DNA of 64,000 bases, taken from positions 806,290-870,289 of the forward strand of contig JAWBNK010000001.1 in assembly GCA_038827615.1 (NCBI GenBank). Reading direction: 5' to 3'. The notes below the pieces were generated by a model. It was not told where the DNA came from. It did no database searches and saw nothing but the letters and a program-made list of their open reading frames with translations. Position 1 is the first letter of the stretch. Every line of letters starts with the position of its first letter. A program made the translations under genes and the position numbers. Shown piece by piece: positions 51,085 to 52,574 of this stretch. The DNA is from Thermosphaera sp. (lineage in GTDB: Archaea > Thermoproteota > Thermoprotei_A > Sulfolobales > Desulfurococcaceae).

Positions 51085-51158
51085 GGGCCCGTAGCTCAGC
51101 CTGGTAGAGCGGCGGGCTCTTAACCCGTAGGTCCCGGGTTCAAATCCCGGCGGGCCCG
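51085..51158 (+). tRNA. tRNA-Lys (anticodon CTT)
   Basis: A 74-nt cloverleaf. The acceptor stem GGGCCCG pairs with CGGGCCC and is followed by discriminator G; the D arm is GCTC/GAGC. The anticodon stem GCGGG/CCCGT holds loop CTCTTAA with anticodon CTT, and the T arm is CCGGG TTCAAAT CCCGG. There is no intron and no encoded CCA. All stems are GC-rich, as expected at high temperature. It reads AAG lysine codons. Confidence 0.97.
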
Positions 51159-51187
51159 CTACTCTTTTCTTAAATGGTGGTGGATGA

Positions 51188-52087
51188 TTGCTTAGAAGGT
51201 TGTTCCAGGAAAATAGTGGCTTAGAAATTTTCATTATACCTGGAACATCGTTTCTTTACACTTCCGATTCAAGGACTTTAATAATGGCTGATTTACACCT
51301 GGGTTTCGAGGAGGCAGTAGCGCGAGGATTGGACTATACTTTGAGGGGTGGAAGTAGCTACTCCGCCATGTTTCTCCCACGTGTTCAATTTAAGAAAATC
51401 ATAGAAACTTTGGAGAATGTTCTAACACGTGTCAAGGTTGATCGTGTAATCATAAACGGTGACTTGAAACATGCTTTTGATAGGTTGTTAAGACAGGAAA
51501 AATCAGAGGTCCGCGAACTCATCAGGTATCTGAGGAATGCTGACATAGATGAAGTTGTTTTGATAAGAGGAAATCACGATAATTTCATTAAAAAGATAGT
51601 TTTAGAGGAAGGTGGACGAATTTACAACGCCTTAAGCTTAAATATGAACGGAACCCGTTTATTCATAACCCACGGCCACGAGTATTTCCCCATAGATGAA
51701 CATGACATCATAATTATTGGACATGAACACCCTAGCATTAGGTGCTTCGGTGGACGAAGATACCCAGTTTTCCAAAAAATCCCGATAGATCATGGGAAAT
51801 GGATCGTAATTCAACCAGCTACCGGTCCATATCACCCGGGCACTCTTGTTACACCTGATCCCGCGAATTACTTATCACCCTATGTGAAAAAATCAAGACT
51901 TCTTCATAAATCAAGGGTGATTCTCTGGGTTGAGTTAGAGAAAAACAGCGAAATGGTGGATCAATTCTCTTCAGTCATCGACTCGCCCCTAGTTCGAATC
52001 GATAGGATTAATTTCGGGGAGAGAGAGTTCGGCATAATAGAGTTCGCAGATTTAGAGACAACAATGTTATTCTGTATGTATGAGTGA
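51188..52087 (+). CDS. Metallophosphoesterase
   Basis: Calcineurin-type phosphoesterase with two metals. Motifs in order: MADLHLGF (D-x-H), INGDLKH (GD), RGNHDN (GNHD), THGHE and GHEHP. At 299 residues it is longer than the archaeal 230-residue members, with about 80 extra C-terminal residues. The TTG at 51188 follows GGTGG; the ATG at 51184 hits a stop at once. The substrate is unknown; DNA-related activity is one possibility for archaeal relatives. Confidence 0.87.
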   Translation: MLRRLFQENSGLEIFIIPGTSFLYTSDSRTLIMADLHLGFEEAVARGLDYTLRGGSSYSAMFLPRVQFKKIIETLENVLTRVKVDRVIINGDLKHAFDRLLRQEKSEVRELIRYLRNADIDEVVLIRGNHDNFIKKIVLEEGGRIYNALSLNMNGTRLFITHGHEYFPIDEHDIIIIGHEHPSIRCFGGRRYPVFQKIPIDHGKWIVIQPATGPYHPGTLVTPDPANYLSPYVKKSRLLHKSRVILWVELEKNSEMVDQFSSVIDSPLVRIDRINFGEREFGIIEFADLETTMLFCMYE

Positions 52088-52088
52088 A

Positions 52089-52146
52089 ACTCAGACAATC
52101 GACCCATCATCAAAATTGTCAGATTATGTCGGCATCAGCATCAATT
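52089..52146 (-). ncRNA. Candidate C/D-box guide RNA
   Basis: On the minus strand, in a gap between convergent genes: a C box TGATGC (52137-52132, or an equivalent copy at 52143-52138), D' box CTGA (52122-52119), C' box TGATGA (52112-52107), a 12-nt guide (52106-52095) and D box CTGA (52094-52091). The 12-nt C'-D spacing is the archaeal standard. A TATA (TTATTTAAG, 52174-52166) predicts a start near 52144, at the C box. The guide TGGGTCGATTGT would direct 2'-O-methylation of the U in ACAATCGACCCA. The weak points are the C boxes ending in C instead of A. Confidence 0.55.
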
Positions 52147-52184
52147 AATATATCGCTAACACGGTCTTAAATAATATTCGATAA

Positions 52185-52574
52185 TCAAGACTTACGGGAT
52201 TTCCTTTCAATAAATATCCTGTAGAGGCGTAATACTTCTCTACCATTAACTAACCTACCATGTGGCCTAAGGCCTCCCTTAAGGTTTCGCGGAACATGTA
52301 AAAGTTCATGTATTAGTACTTTAACTTTCTCGCCAACTGGTAGGTTATCAAACCCCTCCGAGATGACCTCGATCACATATATTGGTTCGACCCCTAATAC
52401 AAATGAATAGATTCGTGGAAACCCGTGGACCCGCGCAATCGCTCTAGATTTACTACCTACTGATCTCACTGCCACGATTCGTTTGAGATCAATATGTTGG
52501 AGTTCGGGCTGGAGAGTGGATACGATATCTTTAATCATGTCGGAAACGTCATTAGCCCAGAAATACTTAATCAT
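52185..52574 (-). CDS. Putative metallopeptidase (archaeal, HExxH)
   Basis: 129 residues with a zinc-protease motif, KVLIHELLHVP (HELLH), and a downstream third-ligand candidate in GGLRPHGRLV. This small single-domain layout is a known conserved archaeal family of predicted metallopeptidases. A beta section (YSFVLGVEPIYVIEVI) precedes the motif. The physiological target is unknown. Start ATG 52574. Confidence 0.75.
   Translation of the reverse strand: MIKYFWANDVSDMIKDIVSTLQPELQHIDLKRIVAVRSVGSKSRAIARVHGFPRIYSFVLGVEPIYVIEVISEGFDNLPVGEKVKVLIHELLHVPRNLKGGLRPHGRLVNGREVLRLYRIFIERKSRKS

Follow-up and report, generated by a model that had tools for sequence, protein, structure and literature searches.

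The window, as we call the whole 64 kb stretch of DNA analysed here, contains a 97-bp gap (52088-52184) between two convergent genes, encoding a calcineurin-like phosphoesterase and a putative metallopeptidase. The minus strand of this gap carries, at 52144-52090, the sequence TTGATGCTGATGCCGACATAATCTGACAATTTTGATGATGGGTCGATTGTCTGAG, which reads as a C box, a 12-nt guide, a D' box, a 6-nt spacer (CAATTT), a C' box, a second 12-nt guide and a D box, and which is referred to below as the sRNA. The features of the locus are as follows.

51188-52087, plus strand: convergent gene, calcineurin-like phosphoesterase, whose 3' end adjoins the sRNA in several relatives.
52090-52144, minus strand: core of the C/D box sRNA gene (with an uncertainty of a few nt at the mature ends), delimited by box order, uniqueness in the window and conservation of homologs over exactly these limits.
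52091-52094, minus strand: D box CUGA, from the sequence and alignment with relatives.
52095-52106, minus strand: D guide TGGGTCGATTGT, 12 nt, from the 23S target scan.
52107-52112, minus strand: C' box UGAUGA, from the sequence and alignment with relatives.
52119-52122, minus strand: D' box CUGA, from the sequence and alignment with relatives.
52123-52134, minus strand: D' guide TGCCGACATAAT, 12 nt, from the 23S target scan and covariation.
52135-52141, minus strand: C box AUGCUGA (variant), from alignment with relatives.
52137-52143, minus strand: C box in the alternative register, UUGAUGC (DNA TTGATGC), from alignment with relatives.
52166-52174, minus strand: putative TATA-like promoter element TTATTTAAG, from a consensus match only, at a position common to relatives.
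52185-52574, minus strand: putative metallopeptidase (PF18894), upstream of the sRNA on the same strand and kept within the genus.

An earlier note had proposed a C/D box guide RNA at this place, and the gap, the order of the four boxes on the minus strand and the 12-nt guide before the D box (52106-52095) are all as it described. Its remark that the other convergent gaps are nearly empty holds for 10 of 14, which measure at most 38 bp or are overlaps; when only ORFs of at least 100 aa are counted, there are also intervals of 192, 298 and 477 bp. The end of the D box lies three bases away from the phosphoesterase stop codon. A tRNA-Lys (CTT) gene at 51085-51159 adjoins the phosphoesterase gene, and this tRNA gene also lies near the sRNA in several relatives, at loci L098, L099, L121 and L117.

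Measured from C to D, flanks included, the sRNA is about 55 nt long, within the 50-70 nt range of its class, and both guides, at 12 nt, lie in the class range of 10-12 nt. The D', C' and D boxes match their consensus exactly (CUGA, UGAUGA, CUGA, respectively), and the C box matches RUGAUGA with one mismatch. The C box claimed earlier is indeed present, but in the register homologous to that of the relatives it is the variant AUGCUGA, in which a C replaces the A of the k-turn GA dinucleotide. This dinucleotide is present in D, D' and C'; the C box has GC in the homologous register and GA when shifted by 3 nt. The alternative register UUGAUGC restores GAUG but lies 15 nt from D', and it is missing from another member of the genus, G001 (GAATGCTGA). 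Many homologs in relatives have a canonical C box, AUGAUGA or GUGAUGA. Upstream, a TATA-like run ends about 25 nt before the C box, in keeping with the TATA box that the note had placed for a start at the C box, and AT-rich TATA-like motifs of the relatives, likewise found by consensus matching, concentrate between -36 and -31 relative to the C box. The element is suitably placed to be a putative promoter.

A scan of both strands of the window, tolerating one mismatch each in C, D' and C', returned a single C-D'-C'-D arrangement, the sRNA itself, with one mismatch over all boxes. In 30 first-order Markov shuffles, the yield was 0.27 arrangements per shuffle, all with at least two mismatches. 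When Rfam was searched at gathering and relaxed thresholds, no family reached threshold for the sRNA and only weak C/D families appeared; sR11 scored best (16.8 bits against a gathering threshold of 39), with snoPyro_CD and others also below threshold, and the homologs of the sRNA had no match in Rfam either.

DNA similarity to relatives, as seen by BLAST, spans query positions ~57-112, that is from the C box to the D box, and fades outside. In an alignment of 11 homologs, the conserved parts are the boxes and the guide cores, GCCGACA for D' and GGGTCGAT for D; the length of the D'-C' spacer and the 1-3 guide bases adjoining D and D' vary. A sequence model built from this alignment (R1, E <= 0.01) found homologs in box-and-guide register in 136 of the 214 genomes of the order, a count that includes near-threshold weak matches, not all of which were inspected. 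Outside the order, convincing copies occur in two genomes of the same class; one match outside the class (G312) was dropped as a generic C/D sRNA with different guides. Loss of the boxes in close relatives, named beforehand as an observation that would count against the guide RNA, is not what we see: throughout the order, the boxes and the cores of the guides are preserved.

The genomes of family f11 (loci L113, L122, L157, L155, L156 and others) show a further feature directly upstream of the sRNA homolog, 2-7 nt before its C box: a hairpin that is conserved, ends in ACA and contains an H/ACA-like internal loop. This arrangement suggests that an H/ACA guide and a C/D guide form one unit of two RNAs.

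In archaeal C/D RNPs, the C/D k-turn and the C'/D' k-loop are both bound by L7Ae, which is joined by Nop5 and fibrillarin; the nucleotide that fibrillarin methylates is the one pairing with the fifth guide base counted upstream from D or D' (N+5; PMC7994747). We scanned both guides against the organism's own 16S and 23S rRNA. For each guide, the best target lies in 23S rRNA, where guide positions 4-11, counted from the adjoining D or D' box, form eight consecutive Watson-Crick pairs; 16S rRNA holds no target comparable to these. The D guide pairs with CCCATCGACCCC, which places N+5 opposite U2639 of the organism's 23S, and the D' guide pairs with TCGATGTCGGCT, which places N+5 opposite U2664, the two sites being 25 nt apart. 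In an alignment to the E. coli sequence, these residues correspond to E. coli U2479 and U2504, respectively. The methylation sites predicted by the N+5 rule are thus U2479 for the D guide and U2504, in the peptidyl-transferase centre, for the D' guide. Among 20,000 composition-preserving shuffles of the guides, the fraction with both 8-bp matches at most 100 nt apart was 5e-5. The search of the rRNA for targets, which had been proposed as a check, thus yielded an exact match for each guide.

Some observations concern single groups or sites. An exact genome search with ACAATCGACCCA found one other perfect site, outside the rRNA operon, which we set aside; the real target differs from this sequence at guide positions 1-3 and 12. 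In family f6 (G060, G064, G065, G068, G069, G076, G085), the D guide is GGGTCAAT, with a mismatch to its 23S target at position 6. In the Sulfolobaceae-like genus g72 (G190, G191, G194, G195, G196), position 8 of the D' guide is mismatched and the pairing is moved towards the D' box, which may reflect decay or a change of register of the 2504 guide in this genus. The 23S loci of G019, G028 and G035 (L089, L091 and L090, respectively) contain 38-52 extra bases between positions 152 and 153 of the 200-nt query, a pattern that a small rRNA intron or insertion would give.

The strongest evidence for the predicted sRNA is the covariation between the D' guide and its target. Position 2504, which lies in the peptidyl-transferase ring of 23S rRNA, is C instead of U in two families of the order, f2 and f3, where the target reads TCGACGTCGGCT (G026, G036, G117, G119, G120, G123, G124 and G125; further G135, G136, G138, G139, G140, G144 and G150, with L170, L176, L179 and L190 as example loci). 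At N+5, the D' guide has A in 57 genomes with U2504 and G in 14 genomes with C2504, with no exceptions, counts which span related, non-independent genomes and to which we attach no probability. Of the U/A pairs, 53 were read by script, and the remaining four, from G180, G191 and G196, which have divergent cores, and from the genome of the window, by eye. The same correspondence would predict U2504 in G116 and C2504 in G118, G121, G126, G131, G141, G145 and others whose guide has G. Model R1 has no match in the U2504 genomes of genera g17, g27, g58 and g60 in family f2. The change from U to C may have happened only once or twice. The covariation suggests that exact pairing at the putatively methylated position is selected, although pairing alone would also select for it. 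It is likely that a C/D sRNA guides 2'-O-methylation of 2504 throughout the order and that, when two families changed U to C, the guide changed at N+5 and the modification was kept, as Um or Cm.

By every defining feature that could be tested, the predicted RNA is an archaeal C/D box sRNA. Because its box and guide anatomy, its conservation, the exact complementarity to its targets and the guide-target covariation all point the same way, we are highly confident that the locus encodes a double-guide sRNA which would direct 2'-O-methylation of two nearby 23S uridines. Conservation, 23S targets and covariation lend the same support to the identity put forward in the earlier note. Transcription, RNP assembly and methylation are steps that we infer from the sequence. 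The sRNA would be bound by L7Ae, Nop5 and fibrillarin, the genes for the last two being present side by side in this genome. Within domain V of 23S rRNA, the D guide would then direct 2'-O-methylation at U2639 (E. coli U2479), and the D' guide at U2664 (E. coli U2504) in the peptidyl-transferase ring. The sRNA might also help to fold this region of 23S.

That last role is the core of an alternative in which the sRNA is real but serves chiefly to chaperone rRNA folding, and methylation occurs at just one of its two sites in this genus, where the variant C box would weaken the k-turn. Chaperone roles and single-site methylation have been proposed for some double guides (PMC4644070), and the AUGCUGA box of the genus would fit them. 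The covariation of the N+5 base with 2504 speaks for selected exact pairing, which leads us to consider this alternative unlikely, even though selection could act through pairing alone.

The remaining alternatives dispense with a guide RNA altogether. A regulatory RNA acting as 3'-UTR or antisense to the flanking convergent genes would agree with the three bases that separate the sRNA from the phosphoesterase stop codon and with neighbours that are kept in several relatives. Other families, however, place the RNA in different surroundings, for example behind the H/ACA-like hairpin in the family to which Sulfolobus-like genomes belong, and its guides are still matched to 23S, so that we regard such regulation as very improbable. 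Given that the boxes are short and that one C box register is non-canonical, it might be suspected that an AT-rich intergenic spacer resembles C/D boxes by chance. This is refuted by conservation in 136 genomes, and the dual targets and the covariation also contradict it, leaving this explanation with practically no weight. We thus retain the double-guide sRNA as the reading of the locus.

The sRNA shares with known archaeal C/D sRNAs the box order and consensus, the length of 50-70 nt, the 12-nt guides and the N+5 rule (PMC4644070, PMC7994747). It also shares with them two 23S sites less than 100 nt apart and overlap or near-overlap with gene ends (PMC4644070, PMC7994747); a spacing of at most 100 nt between the two sites is typical of double guides (PMC4644070). 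It differs in the variant C box AUGCUGA of the genus and in the pairing of 8 bp per guide, one short of the usual criterion of nine (PMC4644070). This is an ordinary kind of gene, but one of its guides has varied together with a rare substitution in the rRNA that it matches. The guide RNA family, whose predicted targets are E. coli 2479 and 2504, is well supported and seems not to have been annotated before, although it may already be catalogued in RNA-seq lists of Sulfolobus acidocaldarius. Within the open literature, which leaves many journals and supplementary tables outside, we found no report of archaeal methylation at 2504. The change from U to C at this position, with the matching change in the guide, offers a natural test of selection on N+5 pairing or methylation in hot-living archaea.

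The predicted site at 2479 has two known counterparts. The D' guide of Thermoproteus tenax sR50 is listed as targeting 23S alignment position U2753 (PMC4644070, Table 3), which corresponds to E. coli U2479 by the 274-nt offset that other sites in that work show. The D' guide of sR50 and the D guide of the sRNA thus share this residue. When compared by their listed targets, the two RNAs differ in that sR50 reaches U2479 through its D' guide and has a partner guide targeting 2883 and 2783, whereas the sRNA would reach it through its D guide, with the D' guide directed to 2504. AviRb of Streptomyces, which makes Um2479 in 23S rRNA (PMC1829167), acts on the 2'-OH of the same nucleotide in E. coli numbering, but it is a bacterial, protein-only SPOUT methyltransferase that works without a guide RNA.
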